From Kitasatospora sp. NBC_00315 (GTDB lineage Bacteria; Actinomycetota; Actinomycetes; Streptomycetales; Streptomycetaceae), in the NCBI RefSeq assembly GCF_041435095.1, contig NZ_CP108025.1:4650001-4714000 (forward strand): a stretch of 64,000 nt of DNA. Direction: 5' to 3'. This document shows, in pieces, positions 17,845-47,408 of the stretch. The notes beneath the pieces were generated by a model, which saw nothing but the letters and a program-made list of their open reading frames with translations, ran no database searches and had not been told where the DNA came from. A program made the translations under genes and the position numbers. Within the stretch, counting starts at the first letter, position 1. Every line of letters starts with the position of its first letter.

Positions 17845-19758
17845 ATGTCTGAAGGCCACCGCTCCGACCCCGTGCCCGCCGAAGATCTGCGTACGACCGA
17901 GGTCGACCTCGGTGGTCTGGTGAGCGTCCTCGCCACGCACCTCTACTCCACACCGCTGGTCGCGTTGCGCGAACTCGTCCAGAACGCCCACGACTCGCAC
18001 ACCCGGCGCCGGCTGGAGGACCCGGACGGCGGCCACCCGCCGCTGATCCGCGTCCGCGGCGACTCCGCGCGGCGTACCGTCAGCATCGAGGACACCGGCG
18101 CCGGCCTGACCGAGCCGGAGATCCACTCCTACCTGGCCACCGTCGGCACCGGGTACACCCGGCTGCTGCGCGAGGTCACCGGCGACGACGCACTGATCGG
18201 CGCGTTCGGCCTCGGCTTCCTGTCGGCCTTCTCGGTCGCCGACGAGGTCACCGTCACCACCACCTCGCACCGCGAGCCCGCCCTGGGCCACCGCTACCGC
18301 AGCCGCGGCGGCGAGCAGTACAGCGTGGAGGCGACCGCCGCCCGCCCGGGGCCCGGCAGCGTCGTCGAGCTGACCCTCAAGGCCGAGCACGCGCACCTCG
18401 CCGACGAACACGCGCTGCGCGAGGTGCTCGGCCGGTACTGCGTCCTGCTCCCGATCCCGGTGTACGTCGGCGACGACGACCGGCCGGTCAACGACGTGCC
18501 GGTGCCCTGGCGCGAGTCCGTGCCGGGAGACCCGCACGCCGCCCGGATGCGGTTCGCCGCCGCGTTCGGCCGGCGCTTCGAGCCGCTCACCGCCTTTCCC
18601 GTCACCCCGGTCGAGGGCGGCACCGACGCGGTCGGCCTGCTCTGGGTCCAGGACGGCGGTACGTACGGCAGCAGCGACAACCGCGACCTCGCCGTCTACC
18701 TGCGCGGCATGCTGCTCTCCGAGGACGCCCGGGACCTGCTGCCCAGCTGGGCCGGGTTCGTCGGCGGCGTGGTCGAGTCCAGCCGGCTGACGCCGACCGC
18801 CAGCCGGGAGGACCTCCAGCGCGACGATCACTACCGCGCCCTCCAGCAGGCGCTCACCGACGCCATCGTCGACGGCCTCTACGAGACCGCCCGGCTGCAC
18901 CCCGCCGCCTGGCGCCGCATCCTCGCCCGGCACGGTCAGGACCTGCTCGGCGCCGCGCTCTGCGACGACCGGCTGTTCACCCTGCTCGCCGACGACGTCC
19001 CGGTGCCCACCTCGCAGGGCGACCTGACGGCGGGCGCACTGCGGGCCGCCGGCGGTGGCGCGGTGCACGTCGCGCTCGGCAGCAGCGGCGGGTTCGAGGA
19101 GATGCTCTACCGCGCCATGCAGGTGCCGATCGCCCGGGGCGACCGGTACGCGGTGCTGCCGTTCCTGCGCCGCTACGCCCGGCTGCGGGAGTGCCGGATC
19201 GTCGAACTCGGCAGCGAGAACGGCAACCGCGAGCTGTTCCGCGAGCCCGAGCGGCCGCTGCCCGCGGAGGAGCGCGCCTGGCTGGCCGCCGCCCTGGCGG
19301 ACGACGGCGAGCAGCTGGTCCCGGCCCGCTTCGACCCGCCCGGGCTGCCGCTCGTCCTGGTGCCCGACCGGGAGGCCGAGCTCAAGTCCCGGATCGAGGA
19401 CGACCGGGCGGACGGCCGGATCCCGTCCGCCGCGCTGCGGCTCGCCCGGGCCTTCACCGCCCGCACCGGCGGTGAGGTCAGGGCCCGGCTCTACCTCAAC
19501 CTCGCCGCACCCGCCGTCCAGGACCTGCTCACCGCCTACCGCGCCGGGCACACCGGCGCGGCGACGGCGGCCGGGCTGCTCAGCTCGCTCAAGGTGATCA
19601 TGGCCGCCGCGTCCGGGCCGTCCTCGGCCGGCGCACCCGCCGGCGATCTGACCGCCGCGCTGGCCGGCATCGGCACCGCCGTCCGCGCGCTCACCGCGGC
19701 CCGGCCCGCCGGTCTGGCGGCGGTCCCCGACACCCTGCCGGACGAGGACCCGGCGTGA
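17845..19758 (+). CDS. HSP90-like GHKL ATPase (HtpG-related)
   Basis: A 637-residue protein from ATG 17845. An in-frame ATG at 17806 would add 13 residues but has no spaced ribosome site. The Bergerat ATP fold is complete: ELVQNAHDS (Glu43, Asn47, Asp50), EDTGAGLT and GAFGLGFLSAF. The middle domain keeps the HSP90-like YLRGMLLSEDARDLLPSW and the arginine-containing stretch TASREDLQRDD. The C-terminal dimerisation region is short and diverged, and the MEEVD end is absent. This is the actinomycete HSP90-family branch rather than typical HtpG. A TPR protein gene follows after 142 bases, which suggests a chaperone/TPR partner pair. Confidence 0.9.
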   Translation: MSEGHRSDPVPAEDLRTTEVDLGGLVSVLATHLYSTPLVALRELVQNAHDSHTRRRLEDPDGGHPPLIRVRGDSARRTVSIEDTGAGLTEPEIHSYLATVGTGYTRLLREVTGDDALIGAFGLGFLSAFSVADEVTVTTTSHREPALGHRYRSRGGEQYSVEATAARPGPGSVVELTLKAEHAHLADEHALREVLGRYCVLLPIPVYVGDDDRPVNDVPVPWRESVPGDPHAARMRFAAAFGRRFEPLTAFPVTPVEGGTDAVGLLWVQDGGTYGSSDNRDLAVYLRGMLLSEDARDLLPSWAGFVGGVVESSRLTPTASREDLQRDDHYRALQQALTDAIVDGLYETARLHPAAWRRILARHGQDLLGAALCDDRLFTLLADDVPVPTSQGDLTAGALRAAGGGAVHVALGSSGGFEEMLYRAMQVPIARGDRYAVLPFLRRYARLRECRIVELGSENGNRELFREPERPLPAEERAWLAAALADDGEQLVPARFDPPGLPLVLVPDREAELKSRIEDDRADGRIPSAALRLARAFTARTGGEVRARLYLNLAAPAVQDLLTAYRAGHTGAATAAGLLSSLKVIMAAASGPSSAGAPAGDLTAALAGIGTAVRALTAARPAGLAAVPDTLPDEDPA

Positions 19759-19900
19759 GGCCGCGCCGCCCGCGCCCGGCCACGCCGCACCCGGCCCCGG
19801 CCCCGGCCCCGCACCCGGCCACGCCGCACACCGCCGCACCGCACACCGGCGGCGGCCCGGCCGTCGCCACCGCACCGCCCGACCCGCAGGGGGAGACCGC

Positions 19901-22282
19901 ATGAGCAGTGACATCTGGGCCTGGGTCCACGACGCCCACCGGCAGCTGGCCGAGGCCGGCCACCACCGCCTCGCCGAGGCCATCTACGAACTCCCCGGTC
20001 ACGCCAACGAGGGCCGCAACGAGCAGCTCGACGCGGTGTTCCCCGAAGCGCTGGCCACCGCGCGGTCGCTGGACCTGCCCTGGGTCGAGGTCTATCTCAG
20101 GCACTGGCGGATGCAGAACCTGCTCAACAAGCGCCACCAGGGCGAGCTGGCCCTCCCCGAGGCGGTGGACCTGCTGGAGTTCGCCCACCGCGAGCAGACC
20201 GAGAGCTGCCCGCAGTCGGTCTGCGTGGTGCAGGACTTCGCGATCTGCCACGCGCGGGTGGACGGTCCGGGCTACGTCCCGGAGCGGCTCGCCGTCCTCG
20301 GGGAGACGCTGGAGCGGATCGAGCCCGCCCGGGCCTGCTTCGACTGCCTCTCCCGCGAGTACTCCGACGCGCTGGAGGACGACGGGCGGCCGGCGGAGGC
20401 GCTCTCCCACCTCGACACCGCCGCCACCCGGATGCAGGCGGCCGGCCAGCGGCTCTCCCTGCACTTCCACCACGCCCGGGCCGGCACGCTGCACCTGCTG
20501 GGCCGGGACGAGGAGATCCTCACCCTGCTGGACACCGCCGAGCAGGCCGAACGGGCCCGCGGCGCCGAACTCAGCGACAGCGACCGCCGCTGGGGCGCGC
20601 TGCAGCGGGCCCGCGCCCTCGCCCGCCTCGGCCGCACCGACGAGGCCCTCGCCCTGCTGCCGTCGATCGACCAGGCCGAGCAGTACGCGGATCTGCGTCC
20701 CGTCTGGGTCGACACCGTCGAGATCCTGGTCGCCGCCGGCGTACGGGAGAACACCGCCGGGCTCGGCGCCGCCCTCACCGGCTGGGTCGGCTACCTGGAC
20801 TCCACCGGATCCCACCGCCCCTGTGTGGACCTGCTGCTGTCGGCCGGCCGGCTGGCACTGGCTCGCGGCGCCCGGACGGTGGCGCTGACCCTCGCCGCCA
20901 CCGGCGAGCGCAAGCTCGCCCTGCTGCGCCGTACCGAGGGCGTCGCCGAGCTGATCGCCGAGCTGCGGGCCGCGGCCGAAGCGCTGCCGGTTCCGCCGCT
21001 GCCGGTGCCGCCGGCCGAGCTGGTGGCGCTGCTCGACGCCCGGACGCAGGAGGGGGACCAGGAGGCCGACGCGGATCTTCTCGCCGCCGCGCACGCCCGC
21101 CACGAGGAGGGCCCTGAGTCCGCCGAGCACCTGGCCGCGGGCACCGAACTGGCCGTCCGGCTGGCCGGTGCGCTCGGAGCCCTGGGACACACCCGGGCCG
21201 CCACCGACCTGCTCTGGGAGCGGCTCGACCGGGATCCGGGGCACGAGAACCTGGCCGGCCTGCTCGGCTCCGTCCTGATCGACGCCGGGGACGGCGAGGG
21301 GGTCCGCCGGCTGGCCGACCGCCTGCAGGACGTCAGCCCCGCCGACGCGCACTGGACGCGGGCCCGCTGGGCCGCCGCCGAGAGCCGGTGGGCCGACGTC
21401 GGCGAGCACTGCGCCGCGCTGCTGGCCCAGGAGCCCACCCGGATCAACACCCGACGGCTGGCCGCGGCCGCGGCCACCGAACTGGGCGACCACGGGCAGG
21501 CCCAGCGCCTCTACGAGGAGATCCTGCTGCACGCCCTCCCGGCCGAGGGCACTCCACCGCAGGAGCGGCACCGTACCGTCCAGGAGTCCGACCTCTGGCA
21601 GCTGATCACCGCCGCCACCGCGAACCGGGACTGGCAGGCCGTCCGCTCGGCCGGCGCCCGGCTCGGGCTCGCCTTCGACCGGCCGCACGGGCCGGTGGAC
21701 GAGGAGTGGCAGCTGATCACCGTCCGCGCCACCAGGACGGGCGGCGCGAACGTCGACCTCCCGGCGGTGCGGACCGGCCCGGCCACCGCCCGGATCCTGC
21801 CGGTGCTCGGCGACGACGTGCCGCTCAACCACAACGACGTCGTGGTCTTCGCGCCCGCGCTGCTGGAGGCGGCACCGGGTGCGGACGCCCCGCAGCAGGT
21901 CCGCGAGCGCTGGCGGCCGGTCTTCCGGCTGCTCACCCTGCTCGACCCGGCCGGCTACACCACCTACTGGATCGACGGCGGCTGGCCGGGCGACAAGAAG
22001 TGGGCGTCCTTCCGCAAGGAGCTGGCCGAGGCCGGCTACGGGGTCTGGGCCTACAGCGGGGACGAGTACGCGATCACCGATCCGGGCGACGAGGACGGGC
22101 GGCTGCCGGGCGTCTACGCGGCGCTCGGCGTGCCGCCCACCGCCGGGTGCGCCGAGGCGGACGCGTTGCTGCACCGGCTGACCAGGCGGTGGAAGCACCC
22201 GCTCGCCTGGCCCGACCTGGCGAAGGCGGCGGGCGCCGACACGGCCCGGCACGAGGAGACCGTCCGGCGTTACGGCCTCTGA
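19901..22282 (+). CDS. Large TPR-repeat protein following the HSP90-like gene
   Basis: A 793-residue cytoplasmic protein, ATG with a GGGGGAG ribosome site. Residues 1-600 are helix pairs with TPR character (for example EYSDALEDDGRPAEALSHLD, ARALARLGRTDEALALLPSI, ALGALGHTRAATDLLWERL). Six Cys lie within 100 residues, at about 108-150 (ESCPQSVCVVQDFAICHAR, ARACFDCL). The final 150 residues form a distinct globular domain (NHNDVVVFAPALLEAAP, YTTYWIDGGWPGDKKW). TPR domains are standard HSP90 partners in eukaryotes. Here the gene pair suggests a bacterial equivalent, but the client and role are unknown. Same-strand neighbour of the ATPase and probably co-transcribed. Confidence 0.85.
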   Translation: MSSDIWAWVHDAHRQLAEAGHHRLAEAIYELPGHANEGRNEQLDAVFPEALATARSLDLPWVEVYLRHWRMQNLLNKRHQGELALPEAVDLLEFAHREQTESCPQSVCVVQDFAICHARVDGPGYVPERLAVLGETLERIEPARACFDCLSREYSDALEDDGRPAEALSHLDTAATRMQAAGQRLSLHFHHARAGTLHLLGRDEEILTLLDTAEQAERARGAELSDSDRRWGALQRARALARLGRTDEALALLPSIDQAEQYADLRPVWVDTVEILVAAGVRENTAGLGAALTGWVGYLDSTGSHRPCVDLLLSAGRLALARGARTVALTLAATGERKLALLRRTEGVAELIAELRAAAEALPVPPLPVPPAELVALLDARTQEGDQEADADLLAAAHARHEEGPESAEHLAAGTELAVRLAGALGALGHTRAATDLLWERLDRDPGHENLAGLLGSVLIDAGDGEGVRRLADRLQDVSPADAHWTRARWAAAESRWADVGEHCAALLAQEPTRINTRRLAAAAATELGDHGQAQRLYEEILLHALPAEGTPPQERHRTVQESDLWQLITAATANRDWQAVRSAGARLGLAFDRPHGPVDEEWQLITVRATRTGGANVDLPAVRTGPATARILPVLGDDVPLNHNDVVVFAPALLEAAPGADAPQQVRERWRPVFRLLTLLDPAGYTTYWIDGGWPGDKKWASFRKELAEAGYGVWAYSGDEYAITDPGDEDGRLPGVYAALGVPPTAGCAEADALLHRLTRRWKHPLAWPDLAKAAGADTARHEETVRRYGL

Positions 22283-37462: not shown

Positions 37463-37602
37463 ACCCTAGGGCAGTTTCGTTCAAAGTTCAACCATGCGGA
37501 GAGGGTCGCTTCCCGAGCGCCGTCGGGCACCCCGGGAAACGGCCCTTCGGGCAGGCCGCCCGAGCCGCGCGTCGAGCCGGTCGGGCCGCCCGTGGAGCGG
37601 CT

Positions 37603-37692
37603 TCAGGACCGCGCGCGTTCCTCGTCCGTCAGGACGGACGCCGTCCGGCCGTCGATCGACTCGCGCACGATGTCCGCGTGTCCGGCGTGCCG
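37603..37692 (-). pseudogene. C-terminal remnant of a DinB/DUF664 gene
   Basis: Read on the minus strand, 37692 to 37603 encodes RHAGHADIVRESIDGRTA, then a short tail and a TGA. RHxGHADxxRExIDG is the conserved end of DinB/DUF664 (mini-circle) proteins of actinomycetes. Upstream of the Arg the frame passes into a GGGCGTTC tandem repeat and no N-terminal four-helix part or start is present. Only about 29 codons survive, so this is a deleted gene end. It sits in the 416-base gap before the helicase. Confidence 0.65.
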
Positions 37693-37707
37693 GACAGCGG
37701 GACGGCC

Positions 37708-37740
37708 GGGCGTTCGGGCGTTCGGGCGTTCGGGCGTTCG
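37708..37740. repeat. Four 8-base tandem units GGGCGTTC
   Basis: Four exact copies starting at 37708, 37716, 37724 and 37732, directly at the break point of the DinB remnant. Confidence 0.92.
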
Positions 37741-37826
37741 ACGCCACGCGGCTCGTTCGCCCGTTCGGCCGTCGGTGGCTCCGGATACGCTTCGAGGACC
37801 GTCCCAGTAGACCGGAAGGCCCGCCC

Positions 37827-40800
37827 ATGTACGCCCTGCACGCGCTCTGGCGGGCGGACGGGCGGCTGGCCCTGTGGGCGGAGGATGCCCGCGCCCATCC
37901 GCCCGAGCAGCGCTCCGTACCCGATACCGCCGTGGGTCCGCGCGCCGTCAGGGCCCACCCTTTTGCCTGCCCGGCCGCCGCCGTCGCCGGGTTGCTCACC
38001 GGCATCGGCCCGGGGCTCGGCTGGCTCGCCGACCAGGCCCCCGAACGCTGGGCCACGCTGCGACTGCCCACCCTCGGCGGTGCGCCCACGCCGTCCCCCG
38101 AGCTGGCCGTGCCGTCCACCGGGAGCGGGGCGTCGCTGACCCCGTGGCGGGTGCCCGCGCTGCTCTTCGACGCCGCCGCGGCCGCCCAACTGCTCGGGGA
38201 GCTCTTCGACCCGCGCTGGGCGGTGAGCACCGCCGACCTCCCGGCGGACGGGCGGGTCGAGGTCGACCACGGTGCCTCACTGCGCTGGCTGACCGGCGTG
38301 CACGACCTCGCCTGGCGGCTCGTCCGGCAGGGACGCACCCTGCCGGCGCCCACCCGGGAAGGCGCGTCGGTCCACGCGCGCTGGCGCCCGGCGCCGGACG
38401 CGGCCGCCCGCCGGGAGGCCGCCGCGCTGGCCGCCGGCTGCCCGCCGGTCTGCCGCGGCGAGTGGCCGAGCGGTCCCGCCGGGCGCAGCGGCACCGAACT
38501 GGTCGCCGACCTGCTGGACGCGCTGGTCGACGCCGAGGCCCGGTCCGCCCTCGCGGACGGCCCCCCGCTGCTGCGCACGGTGGCCGGCCGGCCGGCTCCC
38601 ACCACCTTCGCCGAACGCTGGCTCCTCGCCCTCGGCACGGCCGACGGTGCGCTCCCGGAGATGCCGGAGACGCCGGATCTGCCGGAGACGCCGGAGACGA
38701 CCGAGGCGACCGAGACGCCCCGGCAGTCCGGCGAGCACGGCGAGCACGGCCGTTCCGGATCGTCCGGACCGCCCGGTCCCCCGGAGCGGGACGGGCAGGA
38801 CGACCGCGCCGCTCTCGCCGAGCTGGAGCACCGCCTCGCCGCCTGGTATGCCCCGCCGGCCCCGGCCGAGGCCCCGCTGCGCCTCTGCTTCCGGCTGGCC
38901 GAACCCAGCGGCCCCGACCCGGCGGATCCCGAGGGCATGCCGTCGGACGACCACTGGCAGGTCGAGTTCCTGCTCCAGGCCGCCGACGAGCCCTCGCTGC
39001 TCGTCCCCGCCGCCGAGTTCCGGCTCGGTGGCGGGGCGCTCGCGGCGCTGGGCCAGAAGGCCGACGACCCGCTGGAGGTCTACGCCGCCGAGTTCGACCG
39101 GGCGATCCCGCACTGGCCCGCCCTGCGCCAGGCCCTGCGGACCCGCCACCCGGCCGCGCTGCGCCTCGACCGGGACGGCGCGCTGGACTTCCTGCGCACC
39201 GCCGCTCCCGAGCTGACCGCCGCCGGTTTCGGCGTCCTGCTGCCGACCTGGTGGCGCCGCCGGCCGGTGCTCGGGCTCACCCTGAACGTCCGCACCCCCG
39301 CCCTCGCGCCGGTCGAGACGCCCGGCCAGGTCGACCGGGACGCCATCGTCGACTTCCGCTGGCAGGCCGCCCTCGGCGGCCGCACCCTCAGCCGGCAGGA
39401 GCTCCTCGACCTCGCCGCCGCCAAACAGGGCCTGGTCCGGATCCGTGGTCAGTGGATCGAGGTCGACGCCGACCAGATCGCCGCCGCGCTGGCCTTCCTC
39501 ACCGGCCGGGGTGGCAGCGGCACGATGACGACGACCCAGGTGCTGCGGACGGCGTTCGACCCCGGGGCGAGCGTGGCCGCACTGCCCGTCGTCGCGGTCC
39601 ACGCGGACGGGGCACTGGGCGACCTGCTGGCCGGCCGGGTGCCCGCCGCCCCGGTCACCGCGCTGCCCGCCGACTTCCACGCCACCCTGCGCCCCTACCA
39701 GGAGCGCGGCCTCGCCTGGCTGCGCTCGCTGGCCTCGCTCGGCCTCGGCGCCGTGCTCGCCGACGACATGGGGCTGGGCAAGACCGTCCAGACACTGGCG
39801 CTGCTCGCGGTCGAGCGGGCGGAGGGGAACACCGCGCCGACGCTGCTGGTCTGCCCGATGTCCCTGGTCGGCAACTGGCAGCGGGAGGCCGCGCGGTTCG
39901 CCCCCGCGCTGCGTCTGCACGTCCACCACGGCCCCGACCGGCCCACCGGGGAGGAGCTGCGCCGGGCCGTCCGGCGGGCCGACCTGGTCATCACGACGTA
40001 CGGGCTGGCGCAGCGCGACGCCGACGAGCTGGGTGCGATCCGCTGGCGGCGGGTGGTGGCGGACGAGGCGCAGTCCATCAAGAACTCCGCGACCGCACAG
40101 GCCAGGGCGGTCCGCTCGCTACCGGTGACCGTGCACCGGATCGCCCTGACCGGTACCCCGGTCGAGAATCGCCTGGCCGAGCTGCACGCCGTGCTGGACT
40201 TCGCCAATCCGGGCCTGTTCGGCTCGGCCTCCCGTTTCAAGGAGCGCTACGCGATCCCGGTCGAGCAGCACGGCAACGCCGCGGTCGCGGCCGAACTCCA
40301 GCGCCGGACGGCGCCGTTCGTCCTGCGCCGGGTCAAGACCGACCCGGCGATCGCGGCCGAGCTCCCCGCGAAGCAGGAGATGACCGTGTGGTGCAACCTC
40401 ACGACCGAGCAGGCCGGGCTCTACCAGGCGGTCGTCGCCGAGCTGCTGCACCGCGTGCACGGGATCCGCGGGGTGGAGCGGCGCGGAACCGTTCTGGCCG
40501 CCATCGGCCGGCTCAAGCAGGTCTGCAATCACCCGGCCCAACTCCTGCACGACGGGTCGGAGTTGGCTGACCGATCGGGCAAGGTGGCCAGGCTGACGGA
40601 GATCCTGACGGAGGCGGTGGCCGAGGGCGACCGGACTCTGGTCTTCACCCAGTACGCCGAGTTCGGCACTCTGCTGCAGCCCTACCTGGCCGCGCGGCTC
40701 GGCCGGGAGGTGCTGTTCCTGCACGGGGCCCTCCCCAAGCGCCGCCGGGAGGAGCTGGTCGCCCGCTTCCAGAGCCCGGACGGGCCGCCGGTCTTCCTGC

Positions 40801-41114
40801 TCTCGCTGAAGGCCGGCGGGACCGGCCTCAATCTCACCGCCGCCAATCAGGTGGTCCACCTGGACCGTTGGTGGAATCCGGCGGTGGAGGAGCAGGCCAC
40901 CGACCGGGCCTTCCGGATCGGCCAGCGCCGGGATGTCCAGGTGCGGCGGTTCGTCTGCGTCGGCACGGTCGAGGAACGGATCGCCGAGATGATCGAGTCC
41001 AAGCGGGCCCTCGCCGACGCGGTGGTCGGGGAGGGCGAGCACTGGCTGACCGAGCTGTCCGCCGACGCGTTGCGCGAGCTGGTGGCGTTGTCCGCCGACG
41101 CGGTGGGGGAGTGA
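37827..41114 (+). CDS. SNF2-family helicase-like ATPase
   Basis: A 1095-residue protein from ATG 37827 (GGAAGG site). N-terminal 560 residues include the SNF2-associated DUF3670-like region and an acidic linker around residues 272-320 (PETPETTEATETP). ATPase motifs: Walker A DDMGLGKTVQT (about residue 646), DEAQSIKN box (about 746), ITTYG and LTGTPVENRL. C-terminal lobe: VFTQYAEF, GTGLNLTAANQV, DRWWNPAVEEQATDRAFRIGQ. Such proteins translocate on double-stranded DNA and remodel bound proteins. The Streptomyces enzymes often sit beside a SWIM zinc-finger gene. Here only a short protein follows. Confidence 0.94.
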   Translation: MYALHALWRADGRLALWAEDARAHPPEQRSVPDTAVGPRAVRAHPFACPAAAVAGLLTGIGPGLGWLADQAPERWATLRLPTLGGAPTPSPELAVPSTGSGASLTPWRVPALLFDAAAAAQLLGELFDPRWAVSTADLPADGRVEVDHGASLRWLTGVHDLAWRLVRQGRTLPAPTREGASVHARWRPAPDAAARREAAALAAGCPPVCRGEWPSGPAGRSGTELVADLLDALVDAEARSALADGPPLLRTVAGRPAPTTFAERWLLALGTADGALPEMPETPDLPETPETTEATETPRQSGEHGEHGRSGSSGPPGPPERDGQDDRAALAELEHRLAAWYAPPAPAEAPLRLCFRLAEPSGPDPADPEGMPSDDHWQVEFLLQAADEPSLLVPAAEFRLGGGALAALGQKADDPLEVYAAEFDRAIPHWPALRQALRTRHPAALRLDRDGALDFLRTAAPELTAAGFGVLLPTWWRRRPVLGLTLNVRTPALAPVETPGQVDRDAIVDFRWQAALGGRTLSRQELLDLAAAKQGLVRIRGQWIEVDADQIAAALAFLTGRGGSGTMTTTQVLRTAFDPGASVAALPVVAVHADGALGDLLAGRVPAAPVTALPADFHATLRPYQERGLAWLRSLASLGLGAVLADDMGLGKTVQTLALLAVERAEGNTAPTLLVCPMSLVGNWQREAARFAPALRLHVHHGPDRPTGEELRRAVRRADLVITTYGLAQRDADELGAIRWRRVVADEAQSIKNSATAQARAVRSLPVTVHRIALTGTPVENRLAELHAVLDFANPGLFGSASRFKERYAIPVEQHGNAAVAAELQRRTAPFVLRRVKTDPAIAAELPAKQEMTVWCNLTTEQAGLYQAVVAELLHRVHGIRGVERRGTVLAAIGRLKQVCNHPAQLLHDGSELADRSGKVARLTEILTEAVAEGDRTLVFTQYAEFGTLLQPYLAARLGREVLFLHGALPKRRREELVARFQSPDGPPVFLLSLKAGGTGLNLTAANQVVHLDRWWNPAVEEQATDRAFRIGQRRDVQVRRFVCVGTVEERIAEMIESKRALADAVVGEGEHWLTELSADALRELVALSADAVGE

Positions 41115-41123
41115 AGGGACGCG

Positions 41124-41417
41124 ATGAACGAGAACCCGAGGGACACCGGCCTGGTGGACGAACGGCCGCTGGAGGACTGCCTGCCGGACTACTGGCGCGG
41201 CACCTTCACCCTCCGCGACGAGTCGGCGCCGGAGCCGAAGTCGCTGTCGGAGTCGGACCCGGAGTCGGACCCGGCGTCGGACCCGGAGCCGGTGCCCGGC
41301 GGGCCGGACGGTGCGCGCGGGAGCGCCCTCGCCGCCCTCGGCCCGTCCGGCATCACCGTACGCGGCCGGGATCTCGCGACGCTGCTGGAACCCGCCTACC
41401 GCGCGTTCACCGCCTGA
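41124..41417 (+). CDS. Short acidic protein next to the SNF2 helicase
   Basis: A 97-residue protein, ATG with an AGGGA site, 9 bases after the helicase stop, so co-transcribed. It begins DERPLEDCLPDYWRG, has 12-base repeats giving SDPESDPASDPEP, and ends GPSGITVRGRDLATLLEPAYRAF. The last part resembles the tail of the SWIM zinc-finger proteins found beside such helicases, as far as I recall. The Cys/His zinc motif itself (CxCxnCxH) is absent. It may be a shortened partner or a degenerate remnant. Confidence 0.65.
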   Translation: MNENPRDTGLVDERPLEDCLPDYWRGTFTLRDESAPEPKSLSESDPESDPASDPEPVPGGPDGARGSALAALGPSGITVRGRDLATLLEPAYRAFTA

Positions 41418-41529
41418 CCGGATCCACCGCGCCGACGGTGCGCCGAAGCGGATCGGCGGGCCCTGGCGCCGACGTTTACGGCCGGACCGGACGGGGCGCC
41501 GCCGAGTCCGTTGCGCTAGCGTCGGTGGT

Positions 41530-42501
41530 GTGACCGAGCCCAGCCTGCCCGCCCCGTCCGATCCGGTGTCCCGGCCGGAGTCGCCGCCGGCGGCGAGGGC
41601 GGCGGCCTCGGGGCCCGGGCCGTCGTCGGCGGCCCTCGTGGCGTTCGAGGAGCACCGCCGGATGCTGTTCGGCATCGCCTACCGGATGCTCGGCAGTGTC
41701 GCGGACGCCGAGGACATGGTCCAGGACACCTGGCTGCGCTGGAGCGAGGTCACCGTCCCGGTTACCAACCCGGCCGGCTACCTGGCCCGCACGGTCACCA
41801 ACCTCGCGCTGAACCGGCTGGGTTCGGCGGCCGTCCGGCGGGAGGCGTACGTCGGGCCCTGGCTGCCCGAGCCGCTGGTGACCGTGCCGGACTCGACCCG
41901 GGAGGCCGAGACCGCCGAGTCGGTCTCGCTCGCCGTGCTCGTCGTGCTGGAGAGCCTCTCGCCGCTGGAACGCGCGGTGTTCGTGCTCAAGGAGGTCTTC
42001 GCCTTCTCGTACCGGGAGATCGCCGAGGTACTGGAGCGCAGCGAGGCGTCCGTGCGGCAGGTCGGCCACCGCGCGCGGTCGCACGTCCGCTCCGGGCAGC
42101 CGCGCTACGACGCGCCGGCCGAGCTCCGCCGACGGGTGACCGACGAGTTCCTGGCCGCCTGCGTCGGCGGGGACCTCAACCGGATGCTGGAGCTGCTCGC
42201 GCCCTCGGTCACCGTCTGGAGCGACGGCGGCGGCCGGGTCAAGGCGGCCCTGCGGCCGATCGAGGGCGCCGACAAGGTGGCCCGCTTCCTGCTGGCGATC
42301 CTCGCCTCCCTGCCGTCGGCCGAGCTGGAGATCCTGCCCGTCGACGTCAACGGACAACCGGGCCTGCTGGTCAACACGGCCGGCCGCACCGACTCGGTGA
42401 CGGTCTTCGAGTTCGAGGACGGCCGGGTCAGCGAGCTGCGGATCGTGCGCAATCCCGAGAAGCTGCGACACCTGGGTGCCGGCGGCCCCGGGCAGCTCTG
42501 A
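41530..42501 (+). CDS. ECF41-type sigma factor (SigJ-like) with SnoaL-like C-terminal domain
   Basis: A 323-residue sigma factor from GTG 41530. A -10-like TAGCGT ends 9 bases before the start, so the mRNA may be leaderless. Region 2: RRMLFGIAYRMLGSVADAEDMVQDTWLRW. Region 4: SPLERAVFVLKEVFAFSYREIAEVL and SEASVRQVGHRA. The C-terminal half is a SnoaL/NTF2-like fold. The ECF41 marks WLPEPL and RNPEKLRHL are both present. In this group the extra domain acts in place of an anti-sigma factor. The usual carboxymuconolactone-decarboxylase or oxidoreductase target gene is not adjacent. Confidence 0.93.
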   Translation: MTEPSLPAPSDPVSRPESPPAARAAASGPGPSSAALVAFEEHRRMLFGIAYRMLGSVADAEDMVQDTWLRWSEVTVPVTNPAGYLARTVTNLALNRLGSAAVRREAYVGPWLPEPLVTVPDSTREAETAESVSLAVLVVLESLSPLERAVFVLKEVFAFSYREIAEVLERSEASVRQVGHRARSHVRSGQPRYDAPAELRRRVTDEFLAACVGGDLNRMLELLAPSVTVWSDGGGRVKAALRPIEGADKVARFLLAILASLPSAELEILPVDVNGQPGLLVNTAGRTDSVTVFEFEDGRVSELRIVRNPEKLRHLGAGGPGQL

Positions 42502-42565: not shown

Positions 42566-42596
42566 TTGACCCTCGACCAGGTCGAGCCCCCAGAGT
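42566..42596 (+). promoter_or_regulatory. MerR-type promoter with 19-base spacer and palindrome
   Basis: TTGACC (42566-42571), a 19-base spacer containing the perfect 15-base palindrome CTCGACCAGGTCGAG (42572-42586), then CAGAGT (42591-42596). A 19-base spacer with an operator inside is the mark of promoters activated by MerR proteins through DNA twisting. The MerR-clamp gene starts 7 bases on, so autoregulation is likely. Confidence 0.7.
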
Positions 42597-42603
42597 CCTC
42601 GAC

Positions 42604-43815
42604 ATGGAGAGCGACATGCGCAGCATCGGCGAGACGGCCCGTGACAGCGGCCTGACCGTGAGCGCACTGCGCTTCTACGACGGCGCCGACGTGCTCGGCC
42701 CGGCCTGGGTGGACCCGCAGACCGGCTACCGCTGGTACGACGAACGCCAGCTGGCAGACGCCCGACTGCTCGCCCGGTTGCGGCGAGTGGGCCTGCCGCT
42801 GGCGGAGATCCGCATCGTCCTCGGCGCCCGACCGGGGGCCGCCGGCGAAGCGCACCGGGTTCTCGATGCGCACCTGTGCCGGCTCCAGGACGGTCTGGCC
42901 GATGCCCGGCGTGAGCTCTCCGCCGTTCGATCACTTCTCGACCAGAGGGAGCACCCCATGGGCCTGACCCGTACCGCCACCCGGATCACCGTCGACGCAG
43001 CCGAGCTGGCGGCCGCACTGGACGCCGTCCGCTTCGCCGTCGGCTCGGATCCCGAACTGCCCGTGCTGGCCGGAGTGCTGTTCGACATCGACGGGCAGGT
43101 GCTGCGTCTGGTCGCCACCGACCGCTACCGGATGGCCCTCTCCGAGACCCCGGTCACCCGGCTGGAGGGCGAGCCGGCCGGGGCACTCGTGCCGACCGCC
43201 CTGGCCGACGGCATCCGCGCGCTGCTCGCGGGCGCCGAGCGGGCCGAACTGGTCCTGGAGGACGGTCGGATCGTGCTGACGGCCGACGCTCACCGGATCG
43301 AGGGCGCCGCCCTGGACCACGACTACCCCGACTACCGCCGGCTGGTTCGGCTGGAGCCCGCCCGCCGGGTCGAGATCGCGGCGGCCACCCTGCGCGAGGC
43401 GGTGGCCGGGGCCGCCACCCGGCGACTGCGGCGCGAGACGGACGGGGTGGACTGCGAGATCCTGGTACTCACCGTCGGCCCGGACGGCGCACTGAGCACT
43501 TCGGACGGCGCACCGAGCACTTCGGACGGCGCACCGAGCGCCTCGGACAGCGCATCGAGCGTCTCGGACGGCCTTGGCGCTGAGGCCGTTCGGTCGGAGG
43601 GCGCGGGCGGCACCGGGCGCGCGGTGGCCGAGGCGGTGGCCGAGGCGGCGGCCTTCCGGATCGCGGTCAACCGGGAGTTCCTCCTCGACGCGGTCCGGGC
43701 CGGCGGTCCGGACCAGCTGGTGCTCGAACTCGGCGGTCCGATCGCACCGCTGGCGATCCGCACGCCGGGGCGCGAGGGCACCTTCTCGATGCTGATGCCG
43801 TTCCGGCTCTCCTAG
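42604..43815 (+). CDS. MerR regulator fused to DNA polymerase III sliding-clamp domains 2 and 3
   Basis: A 403-residue fusion. Residues 1-75 are a MerR HTH (IGETARDSGLTVSALRFYDG, TGYRWYDERQL); residues 80-115 form the dimer coiled coil. From residue 119 it matches DnaN: ELPVLAGVLFDIDGQVLRLV with ATDRYRMALSE (domain 2), then HDYPDYRRLV, then FRIAVNREFLLDAVRAGG and FSMLMPFRLS (domain 3). Clamp domain 1 is missing and the MerR part stands in its place. A Ser/Asp repeat (DGAPSTS units, 21-base repeats, 43495-43575) interrupts domain 3. An internal ATG at 42958 with AGGGAG upstream could produce the clamp part alone. Known role none; perhaps a DNA-state or ligand sensor. Confidence 0.9.
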   Translation: MESDMRSIGETARDSGLTVSALRFYDGADVLGPAWVDPQTGYRWYDERQLADARLLARLRRVGLPLAEIRIVLGARPGAAGEAHRVLDAHLCRLQDGLADARRELSAVRSLLDQREHPMGLTRTATRITVDAAELAAALDAVRFAVGSDPELPVLAGVLFDIDGQVLRLVATDRYRMALSETPVTRLEGEPAGALVPTALADGIRALLAGAERAELVLEDGRIVLTADAHRIEGAALDHDYPDYRRLVRLEPARRVEIAAATLREAVAGAATRRLRRETDGVDCEILVLTVGPDGALSTSDGAPSTSDGAPSASDSASSVSDGLGAEAVRSEGAGGTGRAVAEAVAEAAAFRIAVNREFLLDAVRAGGPDQLVLELGGPIAPLAIRTPGREGTFSMLMPFRLS

Positions 43816-43971
43816 CTCCTCTCCGGGGCCGGTTCAGGAGCCGGTTCAGGAGCAGGGGCGGCTGGGGATCCCGTGGTGGAGCCGGTGGAGCTCGGCCTCG
43901 GGCCGGTCCGGGGCGGCCGGGTCGGCCCGGACGTGCTCGGCGCGGGACACGTGGTTGCTGCTGCTAGCGAT

Positions 43972-43991
43972 GTGCTTGCAATTGCAAGCAC
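43972..43991. promoter_or_regulatory. Perfect 20-base palindrome upstream of the XRE regulator
   Basis: GTGCTTGCAATTGCAAGCAC is a perfect palindrome 19 bases before the start of the XRE gene. Its two TTGCA/TGCAA halves look like an operator of the HTH protein itself, which would block its own transcription. Confidence 0.75.
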
Positions 43992-44010
43992 GGTCGGGCA
44001 GGCTGGCGCC

Positions 44011-44475
44011 ATGGCCTCCTTGAACGTCGGCTCGCTGGGCGAGTACATCCGCGAGCAGCGGCGCTCCGCGCAGTACTCGCTGCGGCAGCTGGCGGAGGCC
44101 GCCGGCGTGTCCAACCCCTACCTCAGCCAGATCGAGCGCGGGTTGCGCAAGCCGAGTGCGGAGATCCTGCAGCAGATCGCCAGAGCGCTGCGGATCTCGG
44201 CGGAGACGCTCTACGTCCAGGCCGGGATTCTGGAGGAGCGGCGGGGAGAGGGCCTGGAACTGCGGGCCGCGATCCTGGCCGATCCGCTGATCAACGAGCA
44301 GCAGAAGCAGGCGCTGCTCGCGGTCTACGACACCTTTCTGAGGGAGAACACGGCTCCGAGGGGTCCGGCCCGCCAGGGCGGGGCCCCGAAGCAGGAACCG
44401 GCCGCCGGCGGGCAGAGTGACGCCCCGGTGACCGAGCGGCCGACTGCCACGGCCGGCCACGACCGAGAGACCTAG
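44011..44475 (+). CDS. XRE-family helix-turn-helix regulator
   Basis: A 154-residue protein from ATG 44011. HTH_3 domain residues 6-65: LGEYIREQRRSAQYSLRQLA, GVSNPYLSQIERGLRKPS (recognition helix NPYLSQIE) and EILQQIARALRIS. The rest is a helical segment then a Pro/Ala/Gly-rich tail. It is first in a conserved row with the HbhA-like gene and DUF2516. The palindrome just upstream suggests autoregulation. Physiological role unknown. Confidence 0.92.
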   Translation: MASLNVGSLGEYIREQRRSAQYSLRQLAEAAGVSNPYLSQIERGLRKPSAEILQQIARALRISAETLYVQAGILEERRGEGLELRAAILADPLINEQQKQALLAVYDTFLRENTAPRGPARQGGAPKQEPAAGGQSDAPVTERPTATAGHDRET

Positions 44476-44493: not shown

Positions 44494-45039
44494 ATGCCGA
44501 TCACGGACGAGATCAAGAAGACCCTCAACGACCCGACCCCGCTCTACGCCATCGCCGGCGCCGGTGACCTGGCGTACGAGAAGCTGCGGGAGGTGCCCGG
44601 CAAGGTCGAGGCGCTCGCCGCGGACCGCAGGGGTACGCAGGAGAAGGCCACCGCCCGTCTGCAGGAGGCCCAGGCCAGGCTGGTCGAGGCGCAGGCCAAG
44701 GTGGCCGGGTCGGTGACCACGCTCCCGACCGACCTGAAGGTGCTGCAGGAGAAGGCGCAGACCTTCGCGCTTCAGCAGGTGGGCCGGGCAGTCGAACTCG
44801 CGGTGAAGGCCAAGGAGGCCTACGACGACCTGGCCGTTCGCGGCAAGGGCGTGGTGGAGAAGGGCCGCGGCGAGACCACCGGGGTCGTCGCGCCGCAGTG
44901 GGCCGGGCCGGAGCAGGACGCGCCGGAGGTCGTCGAGGCGGAGGTGGTCGAGGACGACGAGGCCGCAGCGGCGGACGCCGCCGCGCCGACCGCCGCGAAG
45001 AAGACCCCGCGGGCCAGGAAGACCGACGGCGCCAAGTAG
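44494..45039 (+). CDS. HbhA-like coiled-coil protein
   Basis: A 181-residue protein 18 bases after the XRE gene. Residues 1-125 are a long amphipathic helix region (ALAADRRGTQEKATARLQEA, QARLVEAQAKV). The tail is acidic (EVVEAEVVEDDEAAAA) then Lys/Ala-rich (TAAKKTPRARKTDGAK). This order resembles mycobacterial heparin-binding haemagglutinin HbhA, whose Lys/Ala tail binds sulfated sugars. In Streptomyces it is more likely involved in membrane or surface structure. No signal peptide. Confidence 0.85.
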   Translation: MPITDEIKKTLNDPTPLYAIAGAGDLAYEKLREVPGKVEALAADRRGTQEKATARLQEAQARLVEAQAKVAGSVTTLPTDLKVLQEKAQTFALQQVGRAVELAVKAKEAYDDLAVRGKGVVEKGRGETTGVVAPQWAGPEQDAPEVVEAEVVEDDEAAAADAAAPTAAKKTPRARKTDGAK

Positions 45040-45648: not shown

Positions 45649-45688
45649 CGACGGTGGGCCGGGTGCGCAAGCGCCCGGCCCACCGTCG
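45649..45688. terminator. Bidirectional terminator
   Basis: Perfect 15-base-pair stem (CGACGGTGGGCCGGG with its complement) and a 10-base loop between convergent DUF2516 and PP2C genes. Confidence 0.88.
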
Positions 45689-45704
45689 TGCACGCGGGTT
45701 CGGC

Positions 45705-47408
45705 TCAGCCGAGTATCACCGGGGCCGGGTTGCGTTCGAGCAGGATCACCGCGACGTCGTCGGTCAACGCCCCGCCGTTGAGCTCCTCCACTTCGGCGAT
45801 CGCGCTGTCGACCAGCCGCCCCCGGGTGAGACCGGCCGCCTGGTGGTCGCCGATCAGATCGGCCAGACCGGTCTGCCCCAGGCGCCGGGAGCCCGCTCCG
45901 ACCCGGCCCTCGATCAGGCCGTCGGTGTAGAGCATCAGGCGCCAGCCGGGACGCAGCTCCAGCCGCTGCGCGGGCCAGACCGCCTGTCCGTCGTCGCAGG
46001 GCAGCAGCCCGAGGGCGGGACCGGCATGCTCGGCCGGGAGCAGCTCGGGGCGGTGGTCGGCTCCCAGCAGCAGGGGAGCCGGGTGCCCGGCGAGGTAGAG
46101 CCGGGCATGTTCGACCCGTGCCGCTGCGACGGACCCGCGGCCGGCGTCGGGAGCCGCCGTGGACGGGGTCCGCTGCTCGGTGGCCTCCGGGCCGGCTTCG
46201 ATCACCAGCATGCAGAGCGTCGCGAAGATCTCGTCACTGCGGCGCTCGTGCTCCAGTACGTGCTGGAGCGTCGTCAGCAGGGCCTCCCCGGTCAGGCCGG
46301 CGAAGACCAGGGTGCGCCACGCTATCCGCAGGGCCACGCCGAGGGCGGCCTCGTCGGGGCCGTGGCCGCAGACGTCGCCGATCACCACGTGGACCGTGCC
46401 GTTGTCGGTGCGGACGGCGTCGTAGAAGTCGCCGCCGAGCAGCGCGCGACGGCGACCCGGGCGGTAGCGCCGGGTGAAGGCGAGCCCGGCGCCGTCGAGC
46501 AGGGGGGTGGGGAGCAGATGGCGCTGGAGGCGGGCGTTCTCCTGGCCGCGCAGCTCGGCCTCGACCAGTCGGCGCTGCGACTCGTCGGCCCGCTTGCGCT
46601 CCACGGCGTAGCGCAGGGCGCGGGCGAGCAGCGGGCCGTTGGTCTCCTGTTTGATCAGGAAGTCCTGCGCGCCGGCGGCGACGGCGGCGGCGCCCAGCTC
46701 GGCCCCGGCGGTGTCGGTGAGGACCACCACGGCGGTCTGCGGGGCACGCCGGAGCAGTTCGCGCAGCCCGTCCAGGTCGTTGGCGGAGCCCTGACCGCCG
46801 TCCCGGCCCCGGGGCGGGAGGTCCGGCCGGTGGATCCAGCCGAGGGCGTCCGGGGCGGCCACGTCGGCCCGGGTACCTGTAGCGGCACCCGCACCCGCAC
46901 CCGCACCTGCAGCGGCCGGTGCCGCGCCGGTGCCCGGTGCGGCGAGATCGAGCAGGACGCAGCCGAAGTCGGGGCCGCGCGGGCGGTTGCGGCGCGTCCA
47001 GGGCGGTGCAGGGGCGAGCAGCTCGACGGCGTGGTCCAGGCCGCGGGCCCAGTGCACCTCGATGGAGGCACCGCTCTCGGCCACCGCCGAGGCGATCAGC
47101 CGGGCGTCCGAGGCGTTGTCCTCGATCACGAGCACCTTGAGCGGCGCGGTCTCGACCGAGCTGGTGGCCGATCCGGAGGCGGGCGCACCGGCTGACGTGG
47201 CGGCGGTGCTCCGGGGATGAGGTATCGGGGCGGGTGCCACCGCGCTGGGCGCGCTTCCCTCCCGGCGGCCGGGCCTGCTGCGCGCGTGGCTGGCCGCGGC
47301 GTGCTTGCTGGGGGCGCGGCCGTCAGCGGCGCGGCCCTCGGGGGCACCGGCCAGGGCGCTCGGTGCTTCACCGGCGCCAGGTGCCCGCCCGTCTCCCGTT
47401 GCGGGCAT
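45705..47408 (-). CDS. Response-regulator receiver fused to PP2C (SpoIIE/RsbU) phosphatase
   Basis: A 567-residue protein from ATG 47408 (GGGAGGA site). The first 85 residues are low-complexity Ala/Pro. The receiver follows: KVLVIEDNASDARL, phospho-acceptor Asp in CVLLDLAAPG, VVVLTDT, and Lys in DFLIKQE. An insertion of about 55 residues after LLDLAAP (Ala/Gly repeats, Asp/Pro region) interrupts it. The PP2C domain has GGDFYDAV, GDVCGHGPDEAAL, LYTDGLIEGR and DDVAVILLER. It dephosphorylates anti-anti-sigma factors in known family members. Output therefore probably feeds a stress sigma factor. The cognate kinase is not nearby. Confidence 0.92.
   Translation of the reverse strand: MPATGDGRAPGAGEAPSALAGAPEGRAADGRAPSKHAAASHARSRPGRREGSAPSAVAPAPIPHPRSTAATSAGAPASGSATSSVETAPLKVLVIEDNASDARLIASAVAESGASIEVHWARGLDHAVELLAPAPPWTRRNRPRGPDFGCVLLDLAAPGTGAAPAAAGAGAGAGAATGTRADVAAPDALGWIHRPDLPPRGRDGGQGSANDLDGLRELLRRAPQTAVVVLTDTAGAELGAAAVAAGAQDFLIKQETNGPLLARALRYAVERKRADESQRRLVEAELRGQENARLQRHLLPTPLLDGAGLAFTRRYRPGRRRALLGGDFYDAVRTDNGTVHVVIGDVCGHGPDEAALGVALRIAWRTLVFAGLTGEALLTTLQHVLEHERRSDEIFATLCMLVIEAGPEATEQRTPSTAAPDAGRGSVAAARVEHARLYLAGHPAPLLLGADHRPELLPAEHAGPALGLLPCDDGQAVWPAQRLELRPGWRLMLYTDGLIEGRVGAGSRRLGQTGLADLIGDHQAAGLTRGRLVDSAIAEVEELNGGALTDDVAVILLERNPAPVILG

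Follow-up and report, generated by a model that had tools for sequence, protein, structure and literature searches.

Introduction

In the stretch of DNA analysed here (64,000 nt of Kitasatospora sp. NBC_00315, contig NZ_CP108025.1, hereafter called the window), a single open reading frame at 42604–43815 joins a MerR-type DNA-binding domain to part of a DNA polymerase III beta clamp, raising the question of what a transcription regulator would use a piece of the replication clamp for. A database copy of the protein is annotated only as 'MerR family transcriptional regulator', and our literature search returned no paper on a MerR-clamp fusion and no described function, in agreement with a preliminary description of the locus made from its sequence. 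That description had put forward three guesses, namely a decoy clamp, a loader-dependent regulator and a clamp fold serving as ligand pocket. We herein examine the locus by domain searches, structure prediction, comparison of homologs and operator scans. The promoter elements and the parts of the fusion gene given below all lie on the forward strand.

Results

The reading frame of the fusion is already open from 42553, and operator spacing and homologs led us to place the start at 42604, yielding a long product of 403 aa. Pfam MerR_1 matches residues 7–73 over the cut-off (5e-11), corresponding to a winged helix-turn-helix at residues 6–73 (42619–42822), and the AlphaFold2 model continues with a coiled-coil helix at residues 82–116 (42847–42951), so that both N-terminal elements of a MerR-family protein stand where clamp domain I would be, as had been proposed. 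Clamp domain II follows at residues 126–249 (42979–43350) and is matched by DNA_pol3_beta_2 over residues 130–243 (6e-17, over the cut-off), while domain III at residues 254–403 (43363–43812), assigned from Pfam, the model and alignment to E. coli DnaN, is eroded, its DNA_pol3_beta_3 match at residues 347–401 (1.3e-3) remaining below the cut-off. The NCBIfam dnaN model TIGR00663 scored 91 bits (7e-26, residues 125–268) and did not reach its equivalog cut-off of 137.65. In a phmmer search against the PDB, the C-terminal part led to beta clamps (2e-14) and the N-terminal part to BmrR-type MerR proteins. Domain comparison thereby confirms a fusion of a MerR DNA-binding domain with sliding-clamp domains II and III, without domain I; the two clamp domains per chain of the preliminary description stand, with the refinement that the second is eroded.

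The AlphaFold2 model of the fusion, built with 57 homologs, reached a mean pLDDT of 84, with most of the clamp part above 85 and a disordered region at residues 304–339, and its best Foldseek matches were E. coli beta clamps (E 5e-18). Modelled alone, the clamp part gave a pLDDT of 85 and a pTM of 0.80 and again retrieved E. coli beta clamps (E 2e-17, TM 0.69). The clamp fold supposed for residues 119–403 is therefore also the predicted one. The segments ATDRYRMALSE, HDYPDYRRLV and FSMLMPFRLS, correctly recognised beforehand as pieces of DnaN domains 2 and 3, line up with E. coli DnaN starting at its residues 171, 239 and 358. They contain three blocks of the peptide-binding groove between domains II and III, which by this alignment is present in the fusion: TDRYRM (residues 172–177, 43117–43134), PDYRRL (residues 242–247, 43327–43344) and MLMPFR (residues 396–401, equal to E. 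coli 360–365, 43789–43806).

For scoring, we took 22 positions of E. coli DnaN as the groove. The fusion is identical to the host's own DnaN at 16 of these 22 positions, compared with 42 of 217 elsewhere (p 6e-7), and conservation is higher in the groove columns than in the others (0.84 vs 0.66, p 1e-4). The check on groove residues that the preliminary description had asked for thus found the groove kept. Griselimycin and mycoplanecin bind this groove, in which Met362 acts as gate and Arg365 as contact (PMC10817943); both residues, confirmed by the same work as groove residues of E. coli DnaN, are kept in the fusion as M398 and R401. This conservation does not single out a drug as ligand, since the cell's own clamp-binding proteins use these residues too, and some of them may be conserved because the fold needs them as well.

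The ring interface fared differently from the groove. DnaN has three clamp domains per chain and the fusion two; moreover, the strand of domain III matching E. coli 300–306, which forms the subunit-joining edge of the ring, is missing in most of 85 homologs and replaced by a loop varying in length among them, and the hydrophobic pair I272/L273 of E. coli DnaN is replaced by T/R. In the window, this loop is of low complexity, is encoded by a 21-bp tandem repeat of 4.4 copies (43481–43572) and is disordered in the model. With the groove conserved, the interface strand missing and I272/L273 replaced, the clamp pocket has probably been kept and the ring lost in the window's subfamily. A ring or loader-dependent device accordingly loses support, and with it the loader-dependent regulator among the three initial guesses.

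Upstream of the gene, a −35 element TTGACC (42566–42571) and a −10 element CAGAGT (42591–42596) enclose a 19-nt spacer (42572–42590) carrying the perfect dyad CTCGACC-A-GGTCGAG (42572–42586). Across genera, essentially every homolog is preceded by TTGACC and a CAGAGT-like −10 element, with CTCGACC-N-GGTCGAG in the 19 nt between them. A dyad within an over-long −35/−10 spacer is the classical MerR arrangement, and the fusion gene, with its spacer of about 19 nt, shows it. The start codon lies 7 nt downstream of the −10 element, a distance found in 69 of 76 homologs, from which a leaderless mRNA is predicted. A sigma-70 scan did not flag this promoter, because it accepts spacers of 16–18 nt only.

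The operator at the fusion gene is the sole such site within the window, and the composite operator-promoter occurs once in the organism's own genome, even at up to 3 mismatches. At 2 mismatches it is present in 68 of 70 genomes of the genus, nearly always as a single copy, while the reversed operator used as control gave zero matches in these 70 genomes. We considered a wider regulon and rejected it: taken by itself, the dyad has about 145 matches in the genome at one mismatch or fewer, but the full operator-promoter is unique. Since it is found only at its own promoter, the gene appears to control only itself, as a one-gene regulon under autoregulation.

A further conserved feature lies inside the gene. 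The clamp part begins at codon 119, which is ATG in 73, GTG in 8 and TTG in 1 of 85 distinct homologs, hence a start codon in 82. In 2 more the start is shifted one codon further, and AGGGAG or an equivalent stands just upstream in 83 of the 85. In the window, this Shine-Dalgarno sequence AGGGAG (42946–42951) covers codons 115–116 and includes the rare Arg codon AGG, which encodes Arg115 in 75 of 77 cases, compared with 61 of about 3,130 Arg codons elsewhere (1.9%). Where residue 115 is changed to Lys or Glu, the DNA reads AAGGAG or GAGGAG, and the ribosome site is therefore kept while the protein changes. The Shine-Dalgarno 5-mer precedes 83/83 internal starts as opposed to 3/321 other in-frame ATG and 41/1,117 other GTG codons; these counts come from related homologs and are not independent, yet the difference seen inside these very genes is very large. 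Given the conserved start, its Shine-Dalgarno sequence and this contrast, the gene probably also makes a clamp-only protein, here of 285 aa from the internal ATG 42958 (42958–43815), with a predicted clamp fold. Stop codons that seemed to interrupt some homologs proved to be their terminal stops.

As had been suggested, we searched genomes for MerR-DnaN fusions and their neighbours. Each of the 61 genomes sampled from the window's genus carried the fusion, which is patchy in the rest of the family and class; named relatives come mostly from Kitasatospora and Streptomyces, and further from Streptacidiphilus, Actinacidiphila, Micromonospora and Plantactinospora. A second, divergent subfamily in other Actinomycetes has the same MerR-clamp layout and carries a related operator (TTGACCTTCRAG...) directly before its start codon. 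The two subfamilies cluster away from DnaN, at a modest support of 0.66. The internal start is absent from this second subfamily and from a few other homologs, so that a sponge isoform would not be universal. Three loci represent a deeper branch of the second subfamily, with an altered C-terminus and a related operator. Some copies of the fusion in Streptomyces have decayed, and decayed copies (internal deletion, frameshift) stand behind an operator in two genomes of the same family.

The gene is flanked by a helicase, a sigma factor and an HTH protein. As fixed partners these were rejected, the helicase and HTH neighbours being conserved in only part of the genus and the setting changing elsewhere, and with neighbours this inconstant we read the fusion as a stand-alone gene. 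The helicase (37494–41114, 1206 aa) is SNF2-type, of the SCO1167/SCO6262 kind, and falls below its family's full-length cut-off. A SigJ/ECF41-type sigma factor with a SnoaL-like domain (41311–42501) ends about 65 bp before the operator and is not a constant neighbour in relatives. Downstream lie an HTH_3 regulator (43873–44475), conserved in part of the genus, and two frames (44494–45039 and 45654–47195) of the same partial conservation, which matched nothing in Pfam or NCBIfam. Beside the fusion gene, we saw no cluster for a clamp antibiotic.

A second operator site was found in only two of the 70 genus genomes (G041 and G010), in both before a second full dnaN (dnaN2). In G010 it lies 104 nt upstream of dnaN2, and in G041 a MerR-less two-domain clamp gene sits between the two. 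The dnaN2 orthologs share 79% identity with each other and about 50% with the normal dnaN, and within the 70 genomes they are confined to these two. Their groove matches that of the normal clamp at 19 of 22 positions, and being nearly that of the normal clamp, it gives no clear sign in sequence that dnaN2 is a drug-resistant target. An antibiotic cluster near the MerR-less copy of G041 was considered and rejected: no biosynthetic megasynthase was recognised within 60 kb, and a 2,974-aa frame there looks repeat-protein-like by eye.

Scanning the wider family for the operator gave further extra sites at a duplicate fusion in one genome and at an MFS transporter in another. The transporter (474–1861 of locus L287) follows an operator-like site with 1 mismatch in a single genome; it may be a regulon member that pumps drugs, or the site may be due to chance. 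A further full-length DnaN gene, roughly half identical to its chromosomal counterpart, is located in the organism's own genome on a small contig of plasmid-like appearance (C2, 61.7 kb, 19282–20514); no operator of the fusion type was found there.

Discussion

TipA proteins are minimal autoregulated resistance systems, in which one gene with two alternative starts yields an activator as its long product and a drug-binding protein as its short one (PMC7762955). The gene described here resembles this class (TipAL/TipAS, AlbA, SkgA) in joining a MerR HTH and a ligand domain in one gene that, judging from the unique operator at its own promoter, would be autoregulated. Likewise, a second product consisting of the ligand domain alone, as in TipA and AlbA, is predicted for the fusion from its two candidate start codons. 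Unlike in the TipA class, the ligand domain does not have the TipAS fold (no Pfam match to PF07739 in the fusion) and consists of sliding-clamp domains II–III. From MerR drug sensors such as BmrR, with which it shares the N-terminal HTH and the dyad in an over-long spacer, the fusion differs in its effector domain and in an apparent regulon made up of the gene itself. It resembles DnaN in the groove and in the predicted fold of domains II and III, as opposed to its missing domain I, lost ring-closing strand, attached DNA-binding domain and score below the dnaN equivalog cut-off. Second dnaN genes named griR and mypR confer self-resistance within the griselimycin and mycoplanecin clusters (PMC10817943). 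They too are clamp homologs beside a normal dnaN, and the operator of the fusion would drive such a second dnaN in two genomes; the fusion itself, with two clamp domains in place of a full-length second clamp, is no replicative clamp, occurs genus-wide and lies outside an antibiotic cluster.

MerR-family regulators are dimers that distort DNA and activate upon ligand binding. We propose a model in which a dimer of the long form, comprising MerR HTH, coiled coil and clamp domains II–III, would bind the dyad in its own 19-nt-spacer promoter and switch to activation once a ligand occupies the groove where domains II and III meet. The leaderless mRNA would then give more long form together with the clamp-only form from codon 119, which would occupy ligand but form no ring. 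A DnaN-targeting antibiotic of the griselimycin/mycoplanecin type, as made by actinomycetes, would be the likeliest ligand, and in a few strains the same operator would also drive a second full DnaN, the kind of gene that serves as self-resistance in producers. The fusion, its predicted fold, the groove, the operator, the one-gene regulon, the internal start and the dnaN2 targets of this model come from the sequence, while dimerisation, DNA binding, ligand, induction and sequestration are inferred. Such a TipA-like, self-contained sensor and sponge, directed at ligands of the clamp groove and most likely at antibiotics of this type, is the reading that we favour by some degree, since the gene follows the TipA scheme with a clamp standing in for the TipAS domain and since its extra operator targets in the genus are second dnaN genes, like griR and mypR. 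More tentatively, and with the balance leaning slightly against it, the gene may belong to a dedicated clamp-antibiotic resistance circuit, in which a copy of the target acts as sensor (long form) and sponge (short form) and a replacement clamp stands under the same operator in some strains. The ligand may also be endogenous rather than a drug, because the gene is present in every sampled genome of the genus and has no clamp-antibiotic cluster beside it.

The main rival reading involves the cell's own clamp-binding proteins. In a sensor of clamp supply or replication stress, the groove would bind free clamp-binding proteins (polymerase, loader and repair subunits) when DnaN is scarce or blocked, inducing the clamp-like protein and, where present, dnaN2. 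One groove serves all clamp clients, the fusion is universal in the genus and control of clamp supply would agree with a dnaN2 target. A groove decoy lacking ring function would, however, worsen the shortage of clients at the real clamps, and the sponge isoform is a closer copy of drug-binding TipA, so that we consider this reading rather unlikely. If the short form instead titrated replication and repair proteins off DnaN, with the MerR half only setting its level by autoregulation, the clamp-only product with retained groove and lost interface would be accounted for. The preliminary idea of a decoy gains from the encoded isoform just as that of a ligand pocket does from the conserved groove. 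Titration as the function of the gene is nevertheless improbable, as it leaves unexplained both dnaN2 under the same operator and the retention of a sensor half fused to the same groove.

Two domains per chain and a predicted clamp fold would also suit a PCNA-like trimer closing into a six-domain ring, acting on DNA alone or with DnaN. The absence of the strand at E. coli 300–306 in most homologs, the exchange of I272/L273 for T/R and the variable loop in this place make such a ring very improbable. A chance or degenerate fusion without function, for which the decayed copies in Streptomyces could be cited, is scarcely credible, being contradicted by 61/61 genomes, by invariant motifs and by an operator and Shine-Dalgarno sequence under selection. 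Four findings go beyond the preliminary description: the operator, a regulon of one gene, an internal start, and the second-dnaN targets, which hint at a function.

Conclusions

If the proposed model holds, the fusion would regulate transcription with a sensor that imitates the replication clamp, an essential drug target, and resistance to griselimycin-type anti-tuberculosis leads would gain an inducible layer. The promoter of the fusion gene would offer a simple reporter for screening new clamp inhibitors. Should the ligand be endogenous, the gene would report the occupancy of the clamp directly to transcription; should it be an antibiotic, the genus-wide presence of the fusion would suggest that clamp-targeting molecules are common in soil.
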